From Selenomonadaceae bacterium (lineage in GTDB: Bacteria; Bacillota; Negativicutes; Selenomonadales; Selenomonadaceae): a DNA stretch of 40,716 bases. Location of the stretch: assembly GCA_029338835.1 (NCBI GenBank), contig JAQYBD010000077.1, forward strand, positions 1-40,716, in the 5' to 3' direction. Below, in pieces: positions 29,556-40,716 of the stretch (positions within the stretch are counted from its first letter, which is position 1; every line of letters begins with the position of its first letter). The notes beneath the pieces are model-generated. The model searched no databases. It saw only the letters and a list, made by a program, of their open reading frames with translations, and was not told the DNA's origin. The translations under genes and the position numbers were made by a program.

Positions 29556-30016
29556 ATGTCATCATCAGCAATTACCCTGAGAACCTCAAAGTACCGGCAG
29601 AATACGTTGAGAACGTGACGGCTGCGGCAGAGAAAGTCGGGGAGCTATACGGCGTGGAGAACGGCGAGGTCAGCATTACTTTGACGGACAATGCCTACAT
29701 CCATGAACTCAATCGGGAATATCGCGGCATCGACCGCCCGACGGATGTCCTTTCCTTTGCCCTCAATGAAAGTGAGGAGCCAGAGGTCAAGGGCGGCGCG
29801 GATCTCAATGTCCTCGGCGATCTCGTGATTTCTGTGGAACGCGCAGAAGAACAGGCTGCAGAATATGGTCACAGTGTCAAACGCGAGATGGCTTTCCTGA
29901 CGGTTCACGGCATGCTGCATCTCTTGGGGTATGATCATATGGAAGAAGCGGACCGCCTGGAAATGGAGGCGGAGCAGCGCTTCGTCATGGAAAAACTAGG
30001 TATCAGGAGGGAATAA
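29552..30016 (+). CDS. ybeY: Endoribonuclease YbeY
   Basis: The protein has 154 residues. The zinc site is [11 protein letters not shown], with the three His that define the family, preceded by [14 protein letters not shown]. YbeY is a metal-dependent endoribonuclease needed for 16S rRNA 3' end maturation and 70S quality control. Its ATG overlaps the phoH stop, and one base separates its stop from era. It is part of the five-gene ribosome-related operon. Confidence 0.96.
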
Positions 30017-30017
30017 C

Positions 30018-30923
30018 ATGGAACAGAATACGAAACATAAATCCGGCTTCGTCGCCGTCATCGGCCGCCCGAACGTCGGCAAGTCGACACTCATCAACAC
30101 GCTGATCGGCCAGAAGATCGCCATCATGAGCGACAAGCCGCAGACTACGCAGAACCGCATTCTCTGTATCCTGACGGAGCCGGATGCTCAGATCATTTTC
30201 CTCGATACGCCGGGTATCCACAAGCCGAAGCACAAGCTCGGCGAGTACATGGTCAAGGCTGCCGAAGGTACGCTCAAAGAAGTCGATGCCATCCTGTTCG
30301 TCGTCGATGCGACGGAGAAGATGGGCCCGGGCGAGTACTATATCCTTGAACGCCTGCAGTCGACCCGCAAGCCGGTCATCCTCGTCGTCAACAAGCTTGA
30401 CCTCATTGAGAAGGAACAGGCCCTGCCCATCATTTCCCGCTATACGGAGAAATATCCGTTTGTCGGTGTGGTGCCGATTTCGGCCAAGATGGAACTCAAC
30501 CTCGCTTCTCTGCTGACGGAAGTCAAGAAGTATCTGCCGGAGGGGCCGCAGTACTATCCGGAGGATATGGTGACGGATCAGCCAGAGCGCTTGATCGTGG
30601 CGGAACTCGTCCGCGAGAAGGTCCTGCAGCTCACGCGCGATGAAGTACCGCATGCTGTGGCTGTGGAAACGGATGAAATGACTACGCGCGAGAATGGTGA
30701 TGTTTATATCCGTGCCACGATCTATGTGGAGCGCGATTCCCAGAAAGGCATCATCATCGGTGCCAAAGGCGCGATGCTCAAGGAAATCGGCCGCCTGGCC
30801 CGTACGGATATCGAAGCCCTGCTCGGTTCCCGCGTATTCCTGGAACTCTGGGTCAAGGTCAAGAAGGATTGGCGTAACCGCGAAGGCGTCTTGCACAACT
30901 TTGGCTTTGGAGTAGAATCCTGA
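30018..30923 (+). CDS. era: GTPase Era
   Basis: The protein has 301 residues, full length. The GTPase motifs are GRPNVGKST, the Thr of QTTQNR, DTPGIHK and NKLD. The C-terminal KH domain (about 200-295) contains IIGAKGAMLKEIG, which binds the 3' end of 16S rRNA. Era helps mature the 30S subunit. The neighbours ybeY and recO are its usual partners. The stop shares a base with the start of the DUF502 gene. Confidence 0.97.
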   Translation: MEQNTKHKSGFVAVIGRPNVGKSTLINTLIGQKIAIMSDKPQTTQNRILCILTEPDAQIIFLDTPGIHKPKHKLGEYMVKAAEGTLKEVDAILFVVDATEKMGPGEYYILERLQSTRKPVILVVNKLDLIEKEQALPIISRYTEKYPFVGVVPISAKMELNLASLLTEVKKYLPEGPQYYPEDMVTDQPERLIVAELVREKVLQLTRDEVPHAVAVETDEMTTRENGDVYIRATIYVERDSQKGIIIGAKGAMLKEIGRLARTDIEALLGSRVFLELWVKVKKDWRNREGVLHNFGFGVES

Positions 30924-31600
30924 TGAAAGCAGAAGAAAAAGGCCGCAAGAACTGGTCGCGCTGCATTTCCAGGCGTTTTGTCAACGGGCTCATCATCCTG
31001 GTGCCGCTCCTCATCACGCTGCTGGTCGTCGAACAGGCCCTGCATTTCACAGAAGGGGTGCTTGGCAAGCATCTGCCGTTTTATTTCCCGGGCATGGGAC
31101 TCATCACGGTGCTGCTCGTCATCTACTTCGTGGGCTGGCTTTCCTCTTACTGGATCATGCGTCGGCTGATCCATTTCGGTGAAGCCCTGCTCGGCAAGAT
31201 CCCTGTGGTGAAATTCATCTACAACAGTGTCAAGCATCTCTCCACGGCAGTCTTTGAATCGAATAACATGTTCGACCACGTAGTACTCGTGCCGTTCCAT
31301 CAGTCAAAAGCACTGGGCTTCATCATGGCGGATGTGCCGCAGGCCCTGAAGGATGCACTCGGCGATGACTACGTCTGCGTCTTTGTTCCCTGGAGTCTCA
31401 ATATGACCTCGGGTACCAATCTCTTTGTCAGGAAAAGGGATGTCATCTATCTTGACATCAGCAGCGAATCTGCACTGCAGTACATGCTGACGGCAGGAGC
31501 TGTCATGCCGCGCCGCAATGAGCCTCCGCAAAAGCCGGGGCATCCGTCGCCTGAAGCAATGACTGCTGCCAGCAGAGAACGGGAAGAAGGGCATGACTGA
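30923..31600 (+). CDS. DUF502 membrane protein
   Basis: The protein has 225 residues. Two membrane segments are seen, at about 20-38 (LIILVPLLITLLVV) and 60-78 (ITVLLVIYFVGWL). A soluble part with the conserved IPVVKFIYNSVKHLS and VFVPWSLNMTSG blocks follows. The tail is rich in Pro, Glu and Arg. DUF502 has no defined enzymatic function. Start and stop both overlap neighbouring genes (era and recO), so it belongs to this operon, perhaps only by co-transcription. Confidence 0.85.
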   Translation: MKAEEKGRKNWSRCISRRFVNGLIILVPLLITLLVVEQALHFTEGVLGKHLPFYFPGMGLITVLLVIYFVGWLSSYWIMRRLIHFGEALLGKIPVVKFIYNSVKHLSTAVFESNNMFDHVVLVPFHQSKALGFIMADVPQALKDALGDDYVCVFVPWSLNMTSGTNLFVRKRDVIYLDISSESALQYMLTAGAVMPRRNEPPQKPGHPSPEAMTAASREREEGHD

Positions 31601-32337
31601 TGGCACTCTATCAGACGGAGGCTGTCGTACTCGGCTCGAAGAACTGGGGAGAGGCCGACAAGGTCATGACCTTTTTCACGCGGGAACGCGGCCTTGTGCG
31701 CGCCGCAGCCTTTGGTTGCCGCAGGCCGCGCAGTCCGCTGGCCGGAGCCATGCAGATGTTCTCTCATCTCGACCTGCAGCTGGCGGAAGGAAAGCGGCTC
31801 GATACCGTCAGACAGGCCACACTTCTGAATCATTACCGCAAGCTCAGCGAAGATCTCACGGCCATGGCTTATGGCAGCTTTGTCATGGAGTTCTTGCGTG
31901 AGTTCCTGCCAGAGGGACAGCCGGAACCCCATATGCTCGATCAGCTCCTCTTGATCCTGGAGGCGTTTGAGTCACGCAATCCACGCGTGACAGCGCTGGC
32001 CGGCGTCTACCAGCTCATGGAATTCACAGGGATGCAGCTCCATTTTGAGCATTGCGGCCATTGCGGCAAAGATGTGACGGGACAGGCCTATTTCTCCCTG
32101 CGGGAAGGCGGCGTACTCTGTGCGGACTGCCGTACCGAATATGCAGAGTCCTTTCCCGAGGAGCTGCGCCGGCTCATCCTCTCGCTGCGCGACCTCGACT
32201 GGCAGGCCGGCGAGACGCTGCGCATCCGTTCGACACTGCTTGTCCAGGCCGAAACCATCCTGCTCCAATATCTCCAGCAGCTCCTTGGGCGCCCCTTGCG
32301 CTCCCTGGAATTCATCCAGCAGCTGTCCTCTCCATAA
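31600..32337 (+). CDS. recO: DNA repair protein RecO
   Basis: The protein has 245 residues. The N-terminal OB fold contains ETEAVVLGSKNWGEADKV-like sequence, here starting TEAVVLGSKNWGEADKV. A helical domain follows, and then a zinc ribbon with CGHCG and CADC (about residues 149-174). RecO loads RecA on SSB-coated DNA together with RecR and anneals strands. It is the last gene of the phoH operon. Its ATG overlaps the DUF502 stop, and a strong terminator lies downstream. Confidence 0.95.
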   Translation: MALYQTEAVVLGSKNWGEADKVMTFFTRERGLVRAAAFGCRRPRSPLAGAMQMFSHLDLQLAEGKRLDTVRQATLLNHYRKLSEDLTAMAYGSFVMEFLREFLPEGQPEPHMLDQLLLILEAFESRNPRVTALAGVYQLMEFTGMQLHFEHCGHCGKDVTGQAYFSLREGGVLCADCRTEYAESFPEELRRLILSLRDLDWQAGETLRIRSTLLVQAETILLQYLQQLLGRPLRSLEFIQQLSSP

Positions 32338-32405
32338 GCAAAGAACGGCTCGTTCCCTTGTCCACTCCAGCGACTGGATGATACGGAGTGCCGTTGCATG
32401 ATTGA

Positions 32406-32448
32406 AACGGTCTGCTCTGCCCTCTTGAAGGCAGACAGACCGTTTTTT
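32406..32448 (+). terminator. Terminator of the phoH-recO operon
   Basis: AACGGTCTG (32406-32414) pairs with CAGACCGTT (32436-32444), extended by TCTGCC/GGCAGA, and six T follow. It lies about 70 bases past recO. Confidence 0.9.
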
Positions 32449-32585
32449 GGTGTCTTGATATAACTATTTTGTTTGCAGCATATCTGAAATCCGTATTTTC
32501 TTTTTGCGCGCCTATTCCGTATACTTATTTATTGAGCTTTTGCTTTTTATTCGACAGATAACGATGAGGGATGGCTGGAGGTATT

Positions 32586-32603
32586 ATGATAGATCATGGA
32601 TAG
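32586..32603 (+). CDS. Five-codon upstream frame overlapping the PAP2 start
   Basis: ATG ATA GAT CAT GGA TAG begins five bases after GGAGG, the ideal distance, and ends across the ATG of the next gene. The larger gene itself is 15 bases from the same GGAGG. Ribosomes may start here and re-start at 32596. It could also be chance, since only five codons are involved. Confidence 0.25.
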   Translation: MIDHG

Positions 32604-33117
32604 TTGGCTGCTTCTTTTTTTACAGGATCATGTCCGCAATGGTTTTTTGACGCCGGTGATGATCTTCATCACCACGTTGGGCAACAAGGGCCTTATTTGG
32701 CTGCTGATCCTGGCAGCCCTGCTCATGAAACGCCAGACGCGGTGGTTTGGGTTCCTGGCCCTGATGGCTTTTCTCCTGAATGCCGGTTTGGCAGAGATCT
32801 TTCTCAAGCATGCAATCATGCGGCCGCGTCCCTTTTGGGCCATAGCAGATCTGACGCCGCTTGTTCCGCTGCCGCTTACGTATTCGTTTCCATCCGTTCA
32901 TACGGTTTCTTCTTTTTCCGTGGCATTCATTTTATGGAGATCGCCATGGGGAATCTGGAAAAAGGGCTGTATGCTGCTGGCTGCCAGCATGGCCTTTTCC
33001 CGCTTGTATGTCGGCGTGCATTATCCTTCTGATGTGGCAGCCGGTGTGCTGCTCGCATGGCTTGGCAGCAGAATGGTGTGGATGCTCGGGACTCATTGGC
33101 TTCGCGCGCGTTCCTAG
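32596..33117 (+). CDS. PAP2-family membrane phosphatase
   Basis: This is a 173-residue integral membrane protein with about five or six membrane segments. The three phosphatase blocks are the Lys and MRPRP (about 72-80), PSVHT (about 101-105, where PSGH is usual) and SRLYVGVHYPSD (about 136-147) with the catalytic His. Such proteins dephosphorylate lipid phosphates such as undecaprenyl diphosphate or phosphatidylglycerol phosphate on the outer face of the membrane. The exact substrate cannot be told. GGAGG is 15 bases before the ATG, unusually far, and a five-codon frame lies between. The gene is transcribed alone. Confidence 0.88.
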   Translation: MDSWLLLFLQDHVRNGFLTPVMIFITTLGNKGLIWLLILAALLMKRQTRWFGFLALMAFLLNAGLAEIFLKHAIMRPRPFWAIADLTPLVPLPLTYSFPSVHTVSSFSVAFILWRSPWGIWKKGCMLLAASMAFSRLYVGVHYPSDVAAGVLLAWLGSRMVWMLGTHWLRARS

Positions 33118-33132
33118 TCTTGTCACAAAAAG

Positions 33133-33176
33133 ACACCTGTCGTTACTTGGCATTTTGCCAAGGCAACAACAGGTGT
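33133..33176. terminator. Bidirectional terminator after the PAP2 gene
   Basis: ACACCTGT (33133-33140) pairs with ACAGGTGT (33169-33176), with an inner CTTGGCA/TGCCAAG stem. Reverse transcription ends in CTTTTTG, and forward in TTTCC. It separates the PAP2 gene from the converging reverse operon. Confidence 0.75.
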
Positions 33177-33184
33177 TTCCTGCT

Positions 33185-33355
33185 TTATCCTATTGAGCAA
33201 GCTGGCAGCTGATAGCGTTCCAGCGTGTCCATCATGGCGCGTTTCTCAGCAATCGCGTCTTCCAGATAAAAGACGGCAAAGCGATGACCGCTTTCTTCCA
33301 CGCACTGATTCAGCCAGGTGTGAATGCGTGCTTCGATTTCCTGTCGTTGTGACAT
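33185..33355 (-). CDS. Small hypothetical protein downstream of the SnoaL-like gene
   Basis: The protein has 56 residues from the ATG at 33355, with GGAG eight bases upstream; a longer version starting at 33433 would overlap the upstream gene and has no ribosome site. It is acidic to neutral and mostly helical in look (EIEARIHTWLNQCVEES then EKRAMMDTLERY), with two Cys and no signal peptide. It begins 26 bases after the exported SnoaL-like protein and probably shares its mRNA. I do not recognise the family. Confidence 0.55.
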   Translation of the reverse strand: MSQRQEIEARIHTWLNQCVEESGHRFAVFYLEDAIAEKRAMMDTLERYQLPACSIG

Positions 33356-33380
33356 GTGATTTTCTCCGTTCCTTCGTGGC

Positions 33381-33857
33381 TCAGAACATCGTGTTATTGT
33401 TGGCGGATTTTTCCGGGATATCCTGGATGACATCCCAATGCTCTACGATTTTCCCATCCTTGACACGGAAGATATCGACAGCAGCCTGGCCACGATCCGT
33501 AGCATTCAAGGTGATGTGATTGTGGATGAATACGAGATCGCCGTCAGCACCGATGTGCTTGATCTCGGCCTTGCTTTCCGGGAATTCCTGCAGGAAGCCC
33601 TCGATGCCGCTGGCAAAGGCCTGGCGTCCGTCTTCAAAGCCCGGGTTATGCTGGATGTAGTTCGGGGCAGTCATGGTCTTGATGACAGCCGTGTTATGCT
33701 TGTTGAATACCTCGTTCCAGAAATATTCGACCATCTGCTTGTTGTCCGTGAACGCTGGTGCTTTGTCAGCGGCAAAGGCAGGGGTGGCAGAGACGGTTGC
33801 AACCAGGGTCAAGCCCAGCAATACGGCAGTCATTCTTTTCTTCCATTTCATGTTCAT
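33381..33857 (-). CDS. Exported SnoaL-like (NTF2-fold) protein
   Basis: The protein has 158 residues from the ATG at 33857, seven bases after GGAGGAG. Residues 1-29 form a signal peptide: a basic start (KWKKR), a hydrophobic core (AVLLGLTLVAT) and an Ala-x-Ala site before ADKAP. The mature part is a SnoaL-like polyketide-cyclase or NTF2 fold, with YIQHNPGFEDGR and the closing VDIFRVKDGKIVEHWDV. In this family the cavity residues vary, so the substrate cannot be read off. A 17-spaced promoter embedded in a long dyad lies upstream. The next gene upstream codes for an Rrf2 regulator, which probably controls it. Confidence 0.85.
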   Translation of the reverse strand: MNMKWKKRMTAVLLGLTLVATVSATPAFAADKAPAFTDNKQMVEYFWNEVFNKHNTAVIKTMTAPNYIQHNPGFEDGRQAFASGIEGFLQEFPESKAEIKHIGADGDLVFIHNHITLNATDRGQAAVDIFRVKDGKIVEHWDVIQDIPEKSANNNTMF

Positions 33858-33923
33858 GGCAAATCTCCTCCAGTCGATGTGCAACAATGGGGGCTGTTGC
33901 AGATTCTCGTTGTTGTTTTATTG

Positions 33924-33957
33924 ACTACATCATACCATGGAAATGTTGTAGTGTAAA
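33924..33957 (-). promoter_or_regulatory. Promoter within a 29-bp dyad, probable Rrf2-regulator operator
   Basis: On the reverse strand TTTACA (33952-33957), 17 bases, then TATGAT (33929-33934). The same stretch (33924-33952) is a dyad centred on CCATGG: ACTACATCATA on one side and the complement of AATGTTGTAGT on the other, with nine of eleven positions matching. A protein bound here would cover the -10 and spacer. The adjacent Rrf2 gene is the obvious candidate. Confidence 0.65.
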
Positions 33958-33989
33958 GAGCAACAACGAAAATTACGAAAAAGAAATGT

Positions 33990-34427
33990 TCAGGAGGTCT
34001 TTTGCATTTGTTCTTGCATTTCTGCAAATAAGTCCTTTATGGTGACTGCCTGCATCTGTTGCAGGAGCAATTTCTTCCAGGCCTCGAGATGCCCGTCCAG
34101 CACACCTTTGACAGATCTGCCTACCGGGCAGTTGGTATTGGGATGTTCATGCATGTGAAAGAGATTTTCTTTTGCGTCTTCTACTGCTTCAAAGACATCC
34201 CGGACCGTGATGTCTGCCGGTGATTTTTTGAGACAGGCGCCGCCGACGCCCCGGCGGATTTCAATCAAACCGGCTTTCTTCAGCAGCTGCAGCGTTTTGC
34301 GGATATTGACTGCATTTACACCCGTGGTATCCGCAAGAACCTCAGAGGTCACTTTTTCTTCTTCTTCGTATTCTGCCAGGTAGAGAAGGATATGGATGGC
34401 CACGGTCATGCGGCTGGAAAATTTCAA
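33990..34427 (-). CDS. Rrf2-family transcriptional regulator
   Basis: The protein has 145 residues from a TTG start, eight bases after AGGAGG. The winged helix-turn-helix covers residues 1-80, with the family start MKFSSRMTVAIHILLYLAEY cited to its first 20 residues and the wing RRGVGGACLKKSP. Iron-sulfur members such as IscR and NsrR have three Cys in the loop after residue 90; only Cys100 (NTNCPVG) lies there, with Cys65 in the wing. It is therefore more like the cluster-free YwnA group or a thiol sensor. The next gene downstream, an exported SnoaL-like protein, has a large dyad over its promoter. Confidence 0.88.
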   Translation of the reverse strand: MKFSSRMTVAIHILLYLAEYEEEEKVTSEVLADTTGVNAVNIRKTLQLLKKAGLIEIRRGVGGACLKKSPADITVRDVFEAVEDAKENLFHMHEHPNTNCPVGRSVKGVLDGHLEAWKKLLLQQMQAVTIKDLFAEMQEQMQKTS

Positions 34428-34459
34428 GGTTCGTTCCTCCTTTGATACGTTTTTATTTT

Positions 34460-34468
34460 ATTATATCA
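34460..34468 (-). promoter_or_regulatory. Extended -10 promoter of the Rrf2 gene
   Basis: On the reverse strand TGATATAAT gives an extended -10 about 35 bases before the TTG start. It lies just past the DUF554 stop, so the regulator can be transcribed independently. Confidence 0.5.
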
Positions 34469-34473
34469 TCGAT

Positions 34474-35184
34474 TCATGTCGGCCAGAAGATGGCGATGAG
34501 CAGAGCGGGCAGCAGGTTGGCGACGCGGATGCGATAGCCGAACAAAAGATTGATGCCAACGCAAAAAATCAGGATGTTGCCAACGTAGGAAAGGTTGGCA
34601 AGAGCAGCTTCTGTCATCCACGGGGCGATGAGACGGGCAAAGAGTGTGATGCTGCCCTGGAAGATCCCGACGGAAATCGCCGAGAAGATGCAGCCCTTGC
34701 CGAGTGTGGCCGTCATGATCATGACGATGATGAGATCTAGGATGGTCTTGGCAAAGAGGATGGCATGGTCGCCCTGCAGGCTGTCGGTGATGGAGCCGAT
34801 GACGGCCATGGCGCCGATGCAGACGGTCAGCGAGGCGGTGACAAAGCCTTCGACAAAAGAGGAGTCGCTGCTGCTGCCGGAACGTTCCTTGAGCCATTCG
34901 CCAAAGGTCGCGAGCCGGTCTTCCAGATTGATGAGTTCGCCGATGAGTGCGCCGCCGGCGAGACTGGCAATCATCATCATGGTACCTGTCATCTCGAGTC
35001 CTTCTGGTGTGATGTTGAGCATCTGGCGCAAGGTGCCGCCGATGCCGATGAAGATGACGGCAACGGCCGTGGCCATCATCAGGGTATCCTGCAGGCGCTT
35101 CGTGAGCAGGCGGCCGCAGCCGAGCCCTAGAAGCCCGCCGATGACGATGCCGCATACATTTGCAAAGGTGCCAAGTCCGGGCAT
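34474..35184 (-). CDS. DUF554 (YqgA-like) membrane protein
   Basis: The protein has 236 residues from the ATG at 35184, six bases after AAGG; the ATG at 35190 touches that site. About six or seven membrane segments are seen, with the family blocks FANVCGIVIGGLLG at the start, GGALIGE, the FVEGFVTASLTVCIGAMAVIG stretch (cited in part) and LGKGCIFSAISVG. DUF554 proteins are predicted transporters of unknown substrate. The gene is followed by the Rrf2 regulator but has no visible link to it. Confidence 0.85.
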   Translation of the reverse strand: MPGLGTFANVCGIVIGGLLGLGCGRLLTKRLQDTLMMATAVAVIFIGIGGTLRQMLNITPEGLEMTGTMMMIASLAGGALIGELINLEDRLATFGEWLKERSGSSSDSSFVEGFVTASLTVCIGAMAVIGSITDSLQGDHAILFAKTILDLIIVMIMTATLGKGCIFSAISVGIFQGSITLFARLIAPWMTEAALANLSYVGNILIFCVGINLLFGYRIRVANLLPALLIAIFWPT

Positions 35185-35216
35185 AAACATCCTTCTTTCT
35201 TAACAATCATGCACGA

Positions 35217-35253
35217 TGATAAAACCCGCTGGCGAAGTTCGTCAGCGGGCTGT
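35217..35253. terminator. Terminator of the SpeD-like gene
   Basis: CCCGCTG (35224-35230) pairs with CAGCGGG (35242-35248), extended by CGAA/TTCG. TTTTATC follows on the reverse strand, for the SpeD-like gene. TGTCTTTTT follows on the forward strand. Confidence 0.82.
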
Positions 35254-35280
35254 CTTTTTCCTATCTGTCCGTATAGAGGC

Positions 35281-35739
35281 TCAGCTGCGATTGCGGCGGG
35301 CCAGGACGCGCAGGACCTTGGCGCCCGTGTTATGAATCTTGCGCAGCGGGGCTACCTTGGTCTTGACTTTCGGGCGGATGTCCTTCGGCGTGCCGAAATT
35401 GCCGCGTTTCAAGAGCGTGGATTTTATCTTGTCCGGCTTGAAGAAATTACGCATGGCCTGTGCGATGCGTTCGGGGTCGGCATTTTCCTGGCAGAGGAAG
35501 ATGTCAATGGCCACGTATTTGAGTTCGGTATAGATATGCAGGACGATATGGCCCTCGCGGAACAGCAGCATGATGGCATAATGCTGTTCGTCGAGCTGCT
35601 CCGAGCAGCTGTTGATGGGAGTGAAATGGAATTCCTCCTGGATTCCCTCGATGGCTTCGTTGATCTGTTTGCTGTCCTGGAGCTTGCTGTTCTTGCAGTT
35701 GAAGAGATCTACCGTAAGATGACGTGCTAAGATTTTCAT
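35281..35739 (-). CDS. SpeD-fold protein lacking the pyruvoyl-forming serine, with basic tail
   Basis: The protein has 152 residues from the ATG at 35739, nine bases after AAGGAG. Residues 1-110 align with bacterial AdoMet decarboxylase: ARHLTVDLFNC for GRHLLVDLYGC, and EGHIVLH...YVAIDIFLC for ESHISIH...YAAVDVFTC. With this start the numbering matches the family: His68 and Cys83 are kept. Position 63, the Ser that self-cleaves and becomes the pyruvoyl group, is Gly, and position 55 (Ser in Thermotoga) is Ala. No Ser, Thr or Cys lies within several residues of 63 that could replace it. It cannot be a normal decarboxylase. Residues 111-152 add a very basic tail with about 14 Lys and Arg, suggesting nucleic-acid or acidic-protein binding. 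It has its own promoter and terminator. Confidence 0.8.
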   Translation of the reverse strand: MKILARHLTVDLFNCKNSKLQDSKQINEAIEGIQEEFHFTPINSCSEQLDEQHYAIMLLFREGHIVLHIYTELKYVAIDIFLCQENADPERIAQAMRNFFKPDKIKSTLLKRGNFGTPKDIRPKVKTKVAPLRKIHNTGAKVLRVLARRNRS

Positions 35740-35783
35740 ACATCCGCTCTCCTTCATGATGATTTGCTATAAGTCCACCTTAC

Positions 35784-35813
35784 ATTATAGAGGATGGAGC
35801 TGCATGACGTCAA
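35784..35813 (-). promoter_or_regulatory. Promoter of the SpeD-like gene
   Basis: On the reverse strand TTGACG (35808-35813), 18 bases, then TATAAT (35784-35789). It overlaps the end of lgt, so the SpeD-like gene can be expressed separately from lgt. The start codon is about 45 bases downstream. Confidence 0.72.
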
Positions 35814-36631
35814 TTCTTTCGCCGCGCCTTGACTGGGATTTCCTTTTGCCTGTCCGGGGTATCTTTCCGGTAGAGAGGAAGCGCGAGGAAGAAGATCAGG
35901 GCAATGGTGAAAGCGGCAAGACTCGTCGTCTGGGCACTCGTGAAGAGGCCGAGGACTTTTTCCGTATAATCGCCGCGCAGGAATTCGAGGCCGAAGCGGG
36001 CGGCACTGTAGAGCATGACGTAGAGCGCGAAGCATTGTCCTTTGGCATGGTGTGTCGTGCGGAACAGGAGCAGCAATGCGAAGATGACGATATCGAGCTG
36101 TCCTTCCCAGACCTCAGCAGGCCAGAGGGGCTGACTGCCGTAGACATGGTGTGCCAGTGTCGTATCCGGGTAGATGATGCCGAATGAGGAGCCTGTTGGC
36201 GCACCAAAGGCATCGCCGTTGAGGAGATTGGCACAGCGTCCGAGTGCCTGTCCGAGTACGATGGCAGGAGCCAGCACGTCCATGAGGTGTACGGTATCGA
36301 GATGGTGGTGACGGCAGTACCAGACGCCTGTGAGGACGCCGAGGATGACGCCGCCCTGGATGGCCATGCCGCCCTGCCAGACGTTGAAGAGTTCTGTCAG
36401 ATGATGGCTGTAGTAATCCCAGTCGAAGAAAAAAACATCCCATAGCCGCGCGCCGATGAGTCCGGCCACCCCGCAGTAGATGCCGAGATCGACGATGTGG
36501 TCTTCATAGCCGCGCCGGTCAGCCTTTGCGAGGAAGTAGCCGACGCCTGTGGCCAGGATGATGGAAAGGGAGAGGACGAGTCCATACGTGCGGATGGGGA
36601 ACCCGTCGATGAAAAAGAGATATTGATGCAT
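35810..36631 (-). CDS. lgt: Prolipoprotein diacylglyceryl transferase
   Basis: This is a 273-residue inner-membrane enzyme with about seven membrane segments. The FPIRTYGL start (His/Arg-Tyr-Gly block), GGMAIQGG, and the Lgt signature GRCANLLNGDAFG are present, with the essential Arg and Asn residues. It moves a diacylglyceryl group from phosphatidylglycerol to the Cys of prolipoproteins, the first step of lipoprotein maturation. GGAAGG lies six bases before ATG. The C-terminus is basic and cytoplasmic. The leader upstream holds a GTTGCC/GGCAAC hairpin (36661-36676) and a possible -10 (TATAAT at 36714-36719). Confidence 0.95.
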   Translation of the reverse strand: MHQYLFFIDGFPIRTYGLVLSLSIILATGVGYFLAKADRRGYEDHIVDLGIYCGVAGLIGARLWDVFFFDWDYYSHHLTELFNVWQGGMAIQGGVILGVLTGVWYCRHHHLDTVHLMDVLAPAIVLGQALGRCANLLNGDAFGAPTGSSFGIIYPDTTLAHHVYGSQPLWPAEVWEGQLDIVIFALLLLFRTTHHAKGQCFALYVMLYSAARFGLEFLRGDYTEKVLGLFTSAQTTSLAAFTIALIFFLALPLYRKDTPDRQKEIPVKARRKN

Positions 36632-36753
36632 AAGGAACCTTCCTTTTTTCTTTTTTTGCCGTTGCCAGCGGGCAACTGACGTCAGGCATATGCCGCAAAC
36701 GGCTCATAGCGCTATTATAGACGATGTAGCGGGAAAAAAGAAGCAAAATAGAT

Positions 36754-36782
36754 TTGAATTCCGTCCACCCCTGTGGTACAAT
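36754..36782 (+). promoter_or_regulatory. Promoter of ileS
   Basis: TTGAAT (36754-36759), 17 bases, then TACAAT (36777-36782). It starts the T-box leader of about 265 bases. Confidence 0.75.
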
Positions 36783-36804
36783 GAATCCTGTTAACATGTA
36801 AATA

Positions 36805-37035
36805 AATGCGGTGAAGAAGAGAGTACCTTGTCTTGAAAGCGATAGCGAACCGGGGATGGTGGGAGCCGGGCGTGAGTAGGAATGAGGGAAGATCACTTCG
36901 GAGCAGCGGGCTGAACAAAGTAGGTTTCGCCGGTATTCCCCGTTATGGAACAGCGCATGGTGGTGCGTGAGGAAAAATAGGTGGTTTTAACGTAGGCAGC
37001 AAGCCTGCATCCTGTTTGGATGCAGGTTTTTATTT
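36805..37035 (+). ncRNA. T-box riboswitch, isoleucine specifier
   Basis: The leader has the T-box order: GAAGAAGAGAGTA at the base of stem I, then the distal AGCGAACCGGGG and GGGAGCCGGGC arms. The specifier side GAAG-ATC-ACTTCGGAGC follows, with ATC (Ile) at 36914-36916 or close to it, then GCTGAAC and AGTAGG. The tRNA-end pairing word UGGU (36982-36985) follows, and the terminator CCTGCATCC/GGATGCAGG (37004-37026) with TTTTTATTTTT. Uncharged tRNA-Ile binding should prevent termination and raise ileS expression. The T-box core (AGGTGGTTTTAACG) is less conserved than usual. Confidence 0.88.
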
Positions 37036-37054
37036 TTATAAGGAGGAATTTCGT

Positions 37055-40000
37055 TTGTACAGCAAAGTAGATACCAATCTGAATTTCGTTGCACGCGAAA
37101 GAGAAATTGCGAAGTTCTGGAAAGAACACAATATCGCGCAGAAAGCCATTGACCAGCGTGAAGGCTGTGATACCTTCACGTTCTATGACGGCCCGCCGAC
37201 GGCAAACGGCAAACCGCATATCGGCCATGTGCTGACGCGCGTCATCAAGGATATGCTGCCGCGCTTCCAGTCCATGAAGGGCAAAAAGGTCCTGCGCAAG
37301 GCCGGCTGGGATACGCATGGCCTGCCGGTTGAACTCGAGGTCGAGAAGGCTGTCGGCATCAACGGCAAGGAGCAGATCGAGGAATACGGCATCGAGCCGT
37401 TCATCAAGAAGTGCCGCGAATCCGTCTGGAAGTACAAGGGCATGTGGGAGCAGTTCTCCGAGGTCGTCGGTTTCTGGGCGGATATGGAACACCCGTACAT
37501 CACCTATGAAAACAACTTCATCGAGTCCGAGTGGTGGGCACTGAAGGAAATCTGGAATAAGGGCCTGCTCTATGAGGGCTATAAGGTCGTCCCGTATTGC
37601 CCGCGCTGCGGCACGCCTCTTTCCTCGCACGAGGTGGCTCAGGGCTACAAGGACATCACGGAGCGTTCGGCCATGGTCAAGTTCAAGGTCAAGGGCGAAG
37701 ATGCGTATTTCCTCGCCTGGACGACGACGCCGTGGACGCTGCCGTCGAATCTCGCACTCTGCGTCAATCCGGAAGTCGATTACGTCAAGGTACGCGTGAA
37801 CGGCACGGTATACATCCTGGCAGAAGCACTGGTCGATACCGTATTTGAAGGTGTGGAAGGAGAACGTGAAGTCCTCGGCAAATGCAAGGGCAAGGATCTC
37901 GAGTACAAGGAATACGAGCCGCTTTATCCGTTTGCCGACGCAGCTGTGGCAAAACAGGCGAAAGCCGGCAAGAAGGCGTTCATCGTCACTTGTGATGATT
38001 ACGTCACGACGGAAGACGGCACGGGCATCGTCCACATGGCTCCGGCCTTTGGTGAAGACGATAACCGCGTCTGCCGCAACTACAATGTCGCCTTTGTCAA
38101 CCTCGTCAACAGCAAGGGCGAGCTGACGGCAGAGACGGCTTGGCCGGGTGTCTTCGTCAAGAAGGCCGATCCCATGATCCTTGACGATCTCAAGCAGCAG
38201 GGCAAGCTCTTCAAGGCACCGGAATTCACGCACAGCTATCCGCATTGCTGGCGCTGCGATACGCCGCTGCTCTATTATTCGTTCCCGACCTGGTTCATCA
38301 AGATGACGGCAGTCAAGGACGAACTCGTGGCCAACAACAAGACAGTCAACTGGATCCCGAAATCCATCGGCGAGGGCCGTTTCGGCAACTGGCTCGAGCA
38401 TGTGCAGGACTGGGGGCTCTCGCGCAACCGTTACTGGGGCACGCCGCTGCCGGTATGGCAGTGCGAATGCGGCCACCAGCATGTCATCGGTTCCATTGAA
38501 GAACTCAAGAGCCTCAGTGATAACTGTCCTGATGATATTGAGCTGCATCGTCCGTACATCGATAAAGTCACGATCAAATGCCCCAATTGCGGCAAGGAAA
38601 TGCATCGTGTGCCGGAAGTCATTGACTGCTGGTTCGATTCTGGCTCCATGCCGTTTGCGCAGTGGCATTATCCGTTCGAGAACAAAGATATCTTTGCCAA
38701 AAGGTTCCCGGCGGATTTCATCTCCGAGGCTGTCGACCAGACGCGCGGCTGGTTCTATTCGCTGATCGCCATCTCGACGCTGCTCTTCCATAAGGCACCG
38801 TACAAGAATGTCATTGTACTCGGCCATGTCCAGGACAAGGACGGCCGCAAGATGTCGAAGTCGAAGGGCAATGCCGTCGATCCGATGGAAGCGCTCAACA
38901 AGCATGGCGCCGATGCCATCCGCTGGTATTTCTATGAGAACAGCGCGCCGTGGCTGCCGAACCGCTTCCATGATGATGCCGTACAGGAAGGCCAGCGCAA
39001 ATTCATGGGGACGCTCTGGAATACGTATGCGTTCTTCGTGCTTTATGCCAATATCGACAATTTTGATGCGACGAAGTACACGCTCGATTACGACAAGCTG
39101 CCAGTCATGGACAAGTGGTGTCTCTCGCGTCTCAACACGATGGTCAAGGATGTCGATTACGACCTCTCGAACTATCGCGTCACGGAAGCTGCGAAAGCCA
39201 TTGAGCAGTTCGTCGATGAACTCTCGAACTGGTATGTCCGCCGCAGCCGCAGCCGCTTCTGGGCCAAGGGCATGGAGCAGGATAAGATCAATGCCTACAT
39301 GACGCTCTACACGGCTCTCGTGACAACGGTCAAGGCCGCTGCGCCGATGATCCCGTTCATGACGGAATCCATCTATCGCAATCTCGTCTGCAGCATCGAC
39401 AAGCAGGCTCCGGAATCCGTTCACCTGTGCGATTTCCCGAAGGTCAATGAGGCGCATATCGATAAGGAACTCGAGAAGAACATGGGCGAGGTCCTCGAGA
39501 TCGTCGTACTCGGCCGCGCTGCCCGCAACGAAGCGAACATCAAGAACCGTCAGCCGATCGGCAACATGTATGTCAAGGCACCGGTCGTGCTGCCGGACTT
39601 CTACAAGCAGATCGTTGAGGAAGAACTCAACGTCAAGCATGTCGTCTTCAAGGACGATATGGAAGCATATCTCACGTACAGTTTCAAGCCGCAGTTCCGT
39701 GTCCTCGGCCCGAAGGTCGGCAAGAAGATGGGAGCCATCCAGAAGGCCCTCAAGGCTGTCAATGGACATAAGGCCAAGGAAGAACTCGATACGACGGGCA
39801 AGCTCGTCATCTCGCTGCCGGATGGCGATGTGACGCTGTTGCCGGAAGATATCGAAGTCTCCATGGCACAGACGGAAGGCTATAATTGCCAGCGCTACAA
39901 CGGCGTGACGATTGCTCTTGAGACGACGCTTTCTGAAGAACTCCTCGAAGAGGGCTTTGTGCGCGAGATCATCAGCAAGATCCAGACGATGCGCAAGGAA

Positions 40001-40192
40001 AATGGCTATGAGGTCACGGATCACATCAAGGTCGGCATGGCAGGCAATGAGAAGCTGGAAGGACTTGTCAGGAAGAATGAAGCTTTCCTCAAGGAAATCA
40101 CGCTCTGCGACGAAGTGACGTACAGCACGCTCGTAGGCCATGAAAAAGAATGGAACATCAACGGTGAGACGGTAACGCTTTCTGTAAAGTAA
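37055..40192 (+). CDS. ileS: Isoleucyl-tRNA synthetase, IleS2-like
   Basis: The protein has 1045 residues from the TTG at 37055, which follows AAGGAGG after the T-box terminator; an earlier in-frame start would lie inside the terminator hairpin. HIGH is at 55-58 (ANGKPHIGH) and KMSKS at 599-603. The editing domain lies between, with TTTPWTLPSN, and GTGIVHMAPAFGEDD. The length, and the DSGSMPFAQWHYPFEN block, suggest the long IleS2 class rather than the usual bacterial IleS1 of about 930 residues. That class is typically poorly inhibited by mupirocin, which I infer and have not tested. It is controlled by the T-box upstream. Confidence 0.95.
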   Translation: MYSKVDTNLNFVAREREIAKFWKEHNIAQKAIDQREGCDTFTFYDGPPTANGKPHIGHVLTRVIKDMLPRFQSMKGKKVLRKAGWDTHGLPVELEVEKAVGINGKEQIEEYGIEPFIKKCRESVWKYKGMWEQFSEVVGFWADMEHPYITYENNFIESEWWALKEIWNKGLLYEGYKVVPYCPRCGTPLSSHEVAQGYKDITERSAMVKFKVKGEDAYFLAWTTTPWTLPSNLALCVNPEVDYVKVRVNGTVYILAEALVDTVFEGVEGEREVLGKCKGKDLEYKEYEPLYPFADAAVAKQAKAGKKAFIVTCDDYVTTEDGTGIVHMAPAFGEDDNRVCRNYNVAFVNLVNSKGELTAETAWPGVFVKKADPMILDDLKQQGKLFKAPEFTHSYPHCWRCDTPLLYYSFPTWFIKMTAVKDELVANNKTVNWIPKSIGEGRFGNWLEHVQDWGLSRNRYWGTPLPVWQCECGHQHVIGSIEELKSLSDNCPDDIELHRPYIDKVTIKCPNCGKEMHRVPEVIDCWFDSGSMPFAQWHYPFENKDIFAKRFPADFISEAVDQTRGWFYSLIAISTLLFHKAPYKNVIVLGHVQDKDGRKMSKSKGNAVDPMEALNKHGADAIRWYFYENSAPWLPNRFHDDAVQEGQRKFMGTLWNTYAFFVLYANIDNFDATKYTLDYDKLPVMDKWCLSRLNTMVKDVDYDLSNYRVTEAAKAIEQFVDELSNWYVRRSRSRFWAKGMEQDKINAYMTLYTALVTTVKAAAPMIPFMTESIYRNLVCSIDKQAPESVHLCDFPKVNEAHIDKELEKNMGEVLEIVVLGRAARNEANIKNRQPIGNMYVKAPVVLPDFYKQIVEEELNVKHVVFKDDMEAYLTYSFKPQFRVLGPKVGKKMGAIQKALKAVNGHKAKEELDTTGKLVISLPDGDVTLLPEDIEVSMAQTEGYNCQRYNGVTIALETTLSEELLEEGFVREIISKIQTMRKENGYEVTDHIKVGMAGNEKLEGLVRKNEAFLKEITLCDEVTYSTLVGHEKEWNINGETVTLSVK

Positions 40193-40221
40193 GCAATGCA
40201 TTCATGCCGTTATTGGCAAAG

Positions 40222-40254
40222 GCTCCCTTTCGGCGAAAGGGAGCTTTTCTCTTT
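40222..40254 (+). terminator. Terminator of ileS
   Basis: GCTCCCTTT (40222-40230) pairs with AAAGGGAGC (40236-40244) around CGGCG, followed by TTTTCTCTTTT. It lies 30 bases past the ileS stop. Confidence 0.88.
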
Positions 40255-40345
40255 TGGTTTGTATGCAGGGAAAGAAGACAGCAGGAGATTGCGTGCGGAA
40301 CGCGAATAAAAGAAATGGGAAAAAAGAAAAGAAAGGGGGGATATC

Positions 40346-40681
40346 GTGGAGGAACATACGCATGTGCTGGCTGATGGAACGGTCGTGACGCATACGCATG
40401 GTGCGCACGGCCATCAGCATAGTCATACGCAGACGAAGGCAGTCCTCAACCGCATGGCTCGCCTCATCGGTCATCTGGAGTCCATCAAGCAGATGATTGC
40501 CGATGGCAGGGACTGCAGTGATGTACTCATACAGCTTTCCGCGGTGGACAGTGCCATCAAAGGGGTCAGCCGCATCATCCTCAAGGATCATCTCGAGCAT
40601 TGCATCGTGGATGCTGTGCGTGAGAATGACAAGGAAGCGCTTGATCAGCTCAACAAGGCCATCGACCGTTTTTTGAAGTAA
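40346..40681 (+). CDS. CsoR/RcnR-family metal-sensing repressor with His-rich N-terminus
   Basis: The protein has 111 residues from a GTG start five bases after AGGGGGG. Residues 32-111 are the all-helical DUF156 fold. Cys57, His82 and Cys86 match the Cys-His-Cys set that binds Cu(I) in CsoR (C in GRDCSDV, H and C in KDHLEHC). Residues 4-27 hold eight His in HxH patterns, an unusual extension that could bind Ni, Zn or Cu or deliver metal to the sensor site. CsoR proteins release DNA when metal is bound. A target transporter gene is expected downstream but the window ends 35 bases later. Confidence 0.87.
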   Translation: MEEHTHVLADGTVVTHTHGAHGHQHSHTQTKAVLNRMARLIGHLESIKQMIADGRDCSDVLIQLSAVDSAIKGVSRIILKDHLEHCIVDAVRENDKEALDQLNKAIDRFLK

Positions 40682-40716
40682 GCGGGCGGCCAAACGGCAA
40701 TCCAGCGTTTTGTGAG

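Follow-up and report, generated by a model that had tools for sequence, protein, structure and literature searches.

The 152-residue protein encoded at 35281-35739 on the minus strand is best explained as the Selenomonadaceae form of a protein present across Negativicutes, which derives from a class 1b (short) SpeD, or adenosylmethionine decarboxylase (AdoMetDC), and carries a conserved C-terminal extension. Since the residue needed for SpeD activity has been lost in many members, the tailed protein most likely does a job other than that of the SpeD enzyme. In the following, the window means the whole stretch of 40,716 nucleotides that was analysed.

An AdoMetDC fold without the catalytic serine

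The SpeD (AdoMet_dc) domain occupies residues 7-113 of the protein (35401-35721, minus strand), where the Pfam model matches with 85 bits and an E value of 5.6e-24. The NCBIfam model TIGR03330 is also matched above its cut-off (78.9 against 75.65 bits). The top PDB chains by sequence are 1tlu, 1tmi, and 1vr7, all of them the AdoMetDC of Thermotoga maritima. An AlphaFold2 model built with 25 relatives has a core pLDDT of about 81-94 up to residue 110, and Foldseek aligns it to the same enzyme (1vr7/1tlu) with a target-normalised TM score of 0.84-0.86. The class 1b SpeD TM0655 of T. maritima is thus the best PDB match by sequence as well as by structure. The two proteins share the fold over residues 1-116 together with H64, H68, an aromatic residue at position 70 (Y here, W in T. 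maritima), D79, and C83, and E72 is also present in the window protein.

Unlike the T. maritima enzyme, the window protein has Gly63 (codon GGC, 35551-35553) in place of the pyruvoyl-forming Ser63 and Ala55 in place of Ser55, and bears a class-specific basic tail of 40 residues. Additionally, the pocket formed by F49 and E72, presumably the AdoMet contacts, is weakened in its clade. Ser55, His68, and Cys83 are taken here to be the processing and proton-donor residues of class 1b SpeD; position 55 is Ser or Thr in only 3 of 34 Selenomonadaceae proteins. Because residue 63 is Gly, a Ser-derived pyruvoyl cofactor cannot form. An earlier sequence-only reading of this DNA had proposed the SpeD fold, the Gly63 and Ala55 substitutions beside retained H68 and C83, and the inability to form the pyruvoyl group, and it was right on each of these points.

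Departures from SpeD chemistry have been described elsewhere. The SpeD-SpeD fusion of Lentisphaerota (Victivallis) contains a degenerate C-terminal domain whose active-site residues are gone and which cannot self-cleave (PMC10407285); that dead domain is fused to an active SpeD, whereas the tailed protein is free-standing and conserved class-wide. SpeD-derived pyruvoyl ornithine and arginine decarboxylases have likewise changed function (PMC10407285), but they self-cleave at an internal Ser that the window protein lacks. A literature search, with subscription journals mostly outside it, found no paper describing the tailed SpeD-like family of Negativicutes.

The gene and its surroundings

The coding sequence is complete, running from an ATG at 35739 on the minus strand to a stop codon that ends at 35281. 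This ATG is preferred over an in-frame ATG at 35757 because of a Shine-Dalgarno sequence, AAGGAG, at 35749-35754. A 173-residue open reading frame on the plus strand (35209-35730) overlaps the gene and is taken as spurious, since 43 relatives encode the minus-strand protein. The Pfam match and purifying selection rule out a chance reading frame. Phage and plasmid records among the matches listed are ordinary distant SpeDs of 23-28% identity, and a search of viral contigs for the SpeD-like protein found none; a mobile or phage origin was accordingly rejected.

The gene had been credited with a promoter and a terminator of its own. The promoter is plausible, as a candidate TTGACG-18-TATAAT site matching at 11 of 12 positions lies at 35784-35813 on the minus strand and overlaps the end of lgt. 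For the terminator, there is a strong hairpin at 35225-35249, 3' of the stop codon, with no defined strand; however, its long T-run is on the plus-strand side, and the strand of the gene offers only TTTTAT, so that it remains a possible terminator. With this promoter the leader would be only about 20 nt long, too short to hold a riboswitch, and an Rfam scan of 30000-40716 gave no match; a riboswitch or similar RNA element was rejected on both grounds.

Within the window, lgt lies upstream and a DUF554 gene downstream, both on the same strand as the SpeD-like gene. The commonest setting in the class is divergent, near ctsR-mcsA-mcsB-clpC and often close to rRNA (gene names by sequence reading). 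Across loci L136-L175, the tailed gene often sits near contig ends and adjoins apparent rRNA operons and ctsR-mcsAB-clpC, a position conserved in distant families. Membership of the CtsR regulon was rejected, as the boxes sit at ctsR and only L167 has one in the shared divergent region. No conserved operon partner was found across the class loci, which suggests action in trans. Elsewhere in the window, the isoleucyl-tRNA synthetase (IleRS) at 37016-40192 on the plus strand has the look of a type-2 IleRS, scoring 1033 and 1005 bits with the MupB/MupA models (cut-offs 1900) against 986 bits for ileS. A 168-residue protein with a possible signal peptide and no NCBIfam match is encoded at 33381-33887 on the minus strand, adjoining an Rrf2-type regulator at 33990-34427 on the same strand.

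A basic tail more conserved than the core

The tail, residues 111-152 (35284-35409, minus strand), holds 14 Lys or Arg residues and a single acidic one, just as the Lys/Arg-rich extension had been described. It consists of a flexible linker with the family consensus RGDFG..DMKPKxK, followed by a predicted cationic amphipathic helix (residues 132-151) around APLRKIHNTGAKV, whose hydrophobic moment is 0.64 (shuffle p 0.02). In the AlphaFold2 model the linker is of low confidence and the helix of reduced confidence, with a tail pLDDT of 52-74. Across the class, the net charge of the tail ranges from +6 to +22, against -12 to +2 (median -2) for the core.

The tail is the most constrained part of the protein. 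Class-wide, 88.5% of pairs have a higher identity in the tail than in the core (mean 0.50 vs 0.36), and in a Selenomonadaceae-centred set 99.8% do (0.66 vs 0.43). The tail is thus the slower-evolving part, which is the opposite of what is expected for an enzyme with an accessory tail. Moreover, dN/dS is about 0.03-0.17 for the whole gene, in line with the maintained function suggested earlier, and lower still in the tail in the pairs where it could be computed.

The tail is also specific to the class. A tail-only profile was run against 299 Bacillota genomes, 10 of them Negativicutes and 289 from outside the class. It matched in all 10 class genomes and in one marginal, unrelated place outside the class. 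SpeD is present in 223 of the 289 non-class genomes, and none of these SpeDs bears the tail; the outside match, in genome G396, is short and marginal, and the SpeD of that genome is on a different contig. Searches of the tail against Pfam and PDB families gave no significant match.

Distribution and the loss of Ser63

One scan of species genomes retrieved the 43 relatives, all Selenomonadaceae-type (Mitsuokella, itself a member of Negativicutes, Selenomonas, and uncultured relatives), and every one of them has Gly63. In a wider survey, a homologue was found in 145 of 150 Negativicutes genomes, in 122 of the 124 of high quality, and in 67 of 70 genera. There is nearly always one copy per genome, and the same kind of tail recurs throughout the translations from most genera. 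Two near-complete, high-quality genomes of family f15 (G015 and G110) are without any AdoMet_dc (PF02675) protein while their f15 relatives keep the tailed one, so its function is not universal. At one locus (L133, G093:C1:161304-162155), the tail is encoded in a different frame from the rest of the gene, owing either to a frameshift or to an assembly error.

Residue 63 was scored in 95 aligned homologues, as had been proposed. Of these, 58 carry Gly and 30 carry Ser, and the other 7 have Ala, Cys, Phe, Thr, or His. Gly63 is fixed in the sampled Selenomonadaceae and in several other families, and both a sequencing error and an isolated mutation can therefore be rejected. The sequence-only reading had named homologues with Ser63 in the same clade as a refutation, since they would point to one of these two causes. 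Such homologues do exist in the class, but mostly in families other than Selenomonadaceae, and the objection stands only by half.

The pocket residues F49, S/T55, and E72 decay where Ser63 is gone, and the tail stays. An aromatic residue (F/Y/W) at position 49 is found in 24/30 Ser63 proteins vs 9/58 Gly63 proteins (Fisher p 4e-9), S/T55 in 26/30 vs 20/58 (p 4e-6), and E72 in 24/30 vs 18/58 (p 2e-5), all p values being uncorrected for relatedness. Despite this clade-wide decay, Glu72 is still present in the window protein. H64, the aromatic residue 70, and D79, and mostly H68 and C83, persist with either Ser63 or Gly63.

Repeated loss of Ser63 is likely, because parsimony on the best trees requires 5-7 changes between Ser and non-Ser, and family f10 holds both states. 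A single origin of Gly63 is disfavoured by these changes, yet a tree that unites all Gly rows in one clade is not rejected by the AU test (p 0.41 for the core, 0.14 for the full length). As the tail is found on both the Ser63 and the non-Ser63 side, it most simply predates the loss of Ser, and probably came first.

Relation to spermidine synthesis

The same genome encodes a complete E. coli-type SpeD (TIGR03331, 418 bits; C111:6915-7751) and, near it, SpeE (C111:4569-5111), so that the search for a second, intact speD and for speE was successful on both counts. The window protein is therefore not needed for catalysis. In genomes of the Selenomonas group g2, the tailed protein is kept with no other SpeD. 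Furthermore, about 11 genomes that are at least 96% complete keep it with no second SpeD, SpeE, or carboxyspermidine dehydrogenase (CASDH) among the matches listed (G048, G058, G068, G094, G101, G102, G106, G114, G118, G122, and G146; the number may shift by a few). G015 and G110, which have no AdoMet_dc protein, yet encode both SpeE and CASDH. The presence of the tailed protein does not follow the spermidine pathway.

SpeE also occurs in Selenomonas genomes that have no catalytic SpeD (locus L193, 4353-9225, and L195, L197, and L202). The speE-like operon of group g2 comprises a basic amino acid decarboxylase, a dehydrogenase resembling carboxynorspermidine synthase, and an nspC decarboxylase, a gene content that points to a route with no need of SpeD.

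Possible functions

The reading favoured here, tentatively and at somewhat less than an even chance, is that of a SpeD-derived non-catalytic scaffold that binds RNA or another polyanion through its basic arm and cationic amphipathic helix. A class 1b SpeD would have gained the conserved extension and then lost Ser63, with the fold kept as a scaffold that is probably dimeric. The partner of the flexible basic arms may be an abundant polyanion, with RNA of the ribosome or mRNA as the likeliest candidate, and the protein would act in trans as a structural or regulatory factor independent of spermidine synthesis. RNA binding would be the most plausible of the ideas raised in the sequence-only reading. 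The fuller account, held with rather less confidence, is that of one origin at the base of Negativicutes, giving a non-catalytic SpeD derivative that may bind RNA or the ribosome, with a functional tail and with Ser repeatedly discarded, mostly in favour of Gly. The protein has the conserved basic tail and helix of a nucleic-acid-binding protein, but its tail matches no known binding family in Pfam or PDB, and this, together with the low tail pLDDT, counts against a scaffold that binds RNA. The cationic amphipathic helix would equally suit binding to a membrane or a protein. Moreover, the cavity could still bind something, as Selenomonadaceae keep H68 in 30/34 and C83 in 31/34 proteins.

That last point leads to a metabolite sensor, a possible but unlikely role, in which the old active site would bind AdoMet or an amine such as putrescine or cadaverine, and the tail would relay this to RNA, to DNA, or to a protein, for instance a decarboxylase. 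It accords with the large retention of H64, H68, the aromatic residue 70, D79, and C83; however, most Gly-type proteins have lost F49 and E72, the presumed AdoMet contacts. The polyamine sensor put forward earlier survives as a reading, though with an AdoMet pocket that its clade has not kept. The peptidoglycan of Negativicutes carries cadaverine or putrescine, which is needed for outer-membrane anchoring (PMC10628300, PMC8503589), and this also speaks for a sensor, but the protein is retained in genomes that have none of the spermidine routes tested.

The amphipathic helix could alternatively make the protein an adaptor that docks on the inner membrane or on a specific protein, which is judged rather improbable. 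The hydrophobic moment of the helix fits this role, as does a conserved N-T-G within it, a hint of a specific contact. The gene comes after lgt both in the window and at L136, but lgt is not conserved as a neighbour, and the K/R-P-K/R-x-K linker is, in our judgement, more typical of nucleic-acid contacts.

It is very unlikely that the protein is still an enzyme, either as a decarboxylase with another cofactor or, for the Ser63 members, as active AdoMetDCs or ornithine/arginine decarboxylases. The Ser63 homologues mostly carry F49, T/S55, H68, E72, and C83 as well, and ornithine or arginine decarboxylase activity is known among SpeD homologues (PMC10407285). However, another SpeD is present in nearly all Ser63 genomes, and Gly63 excludes a pyruvoyl group in the window protein.

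Least probable of all, and strongly disfavoured because the tailed protein is retained without a partner in Selenomonas g2 and in part of f15, is the prozyme-like role suggested earlier, in which the dead SpeD would form a pair with the cell's own active SpeD and modulate it allosterically. The trypanosome prozyme is likewise a dead AdoMetDC paralogue beside an active enzyme (PMC5201418, PMC6221367), with which it heterodimerises and which it activates (PMC5201418), and dead and intact forms do occur together in this genome; but the active SpeD here belongs to a distant subfamily, the long E. coli type, and it is not obvious what the class-specific basic tail would do in a pairing of this kind.

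Implications

As it exceeds the TIGR03330 cut-off, the tailed protein has probably been named adenosylmethionine decarboxylase in the annotation of many genomes from gut, oral, and rumen bacteria. Such misannotation would give false predictions of the spermidine pathway, including in genomes where no spermidine route was found here. The family is a near-universal, class-specific protein of diderm Firmicutes with a putative function only. Its members naturally differ at residue 63, with Ser, Gly, Ala, Cys, or Phe there, which makes the loss of catalysis and the gain of function directly traceable. If the scaffold reading is true, the conversion of an enzyme into a scaffold would have been caught midway across one class. 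Additionally, polyamines anchor the outer membrane in Negativicutes (PMC10628300, PMC8503589), and a class-wide SpeD derivative is therefore of interest even if its own role is unrelated.
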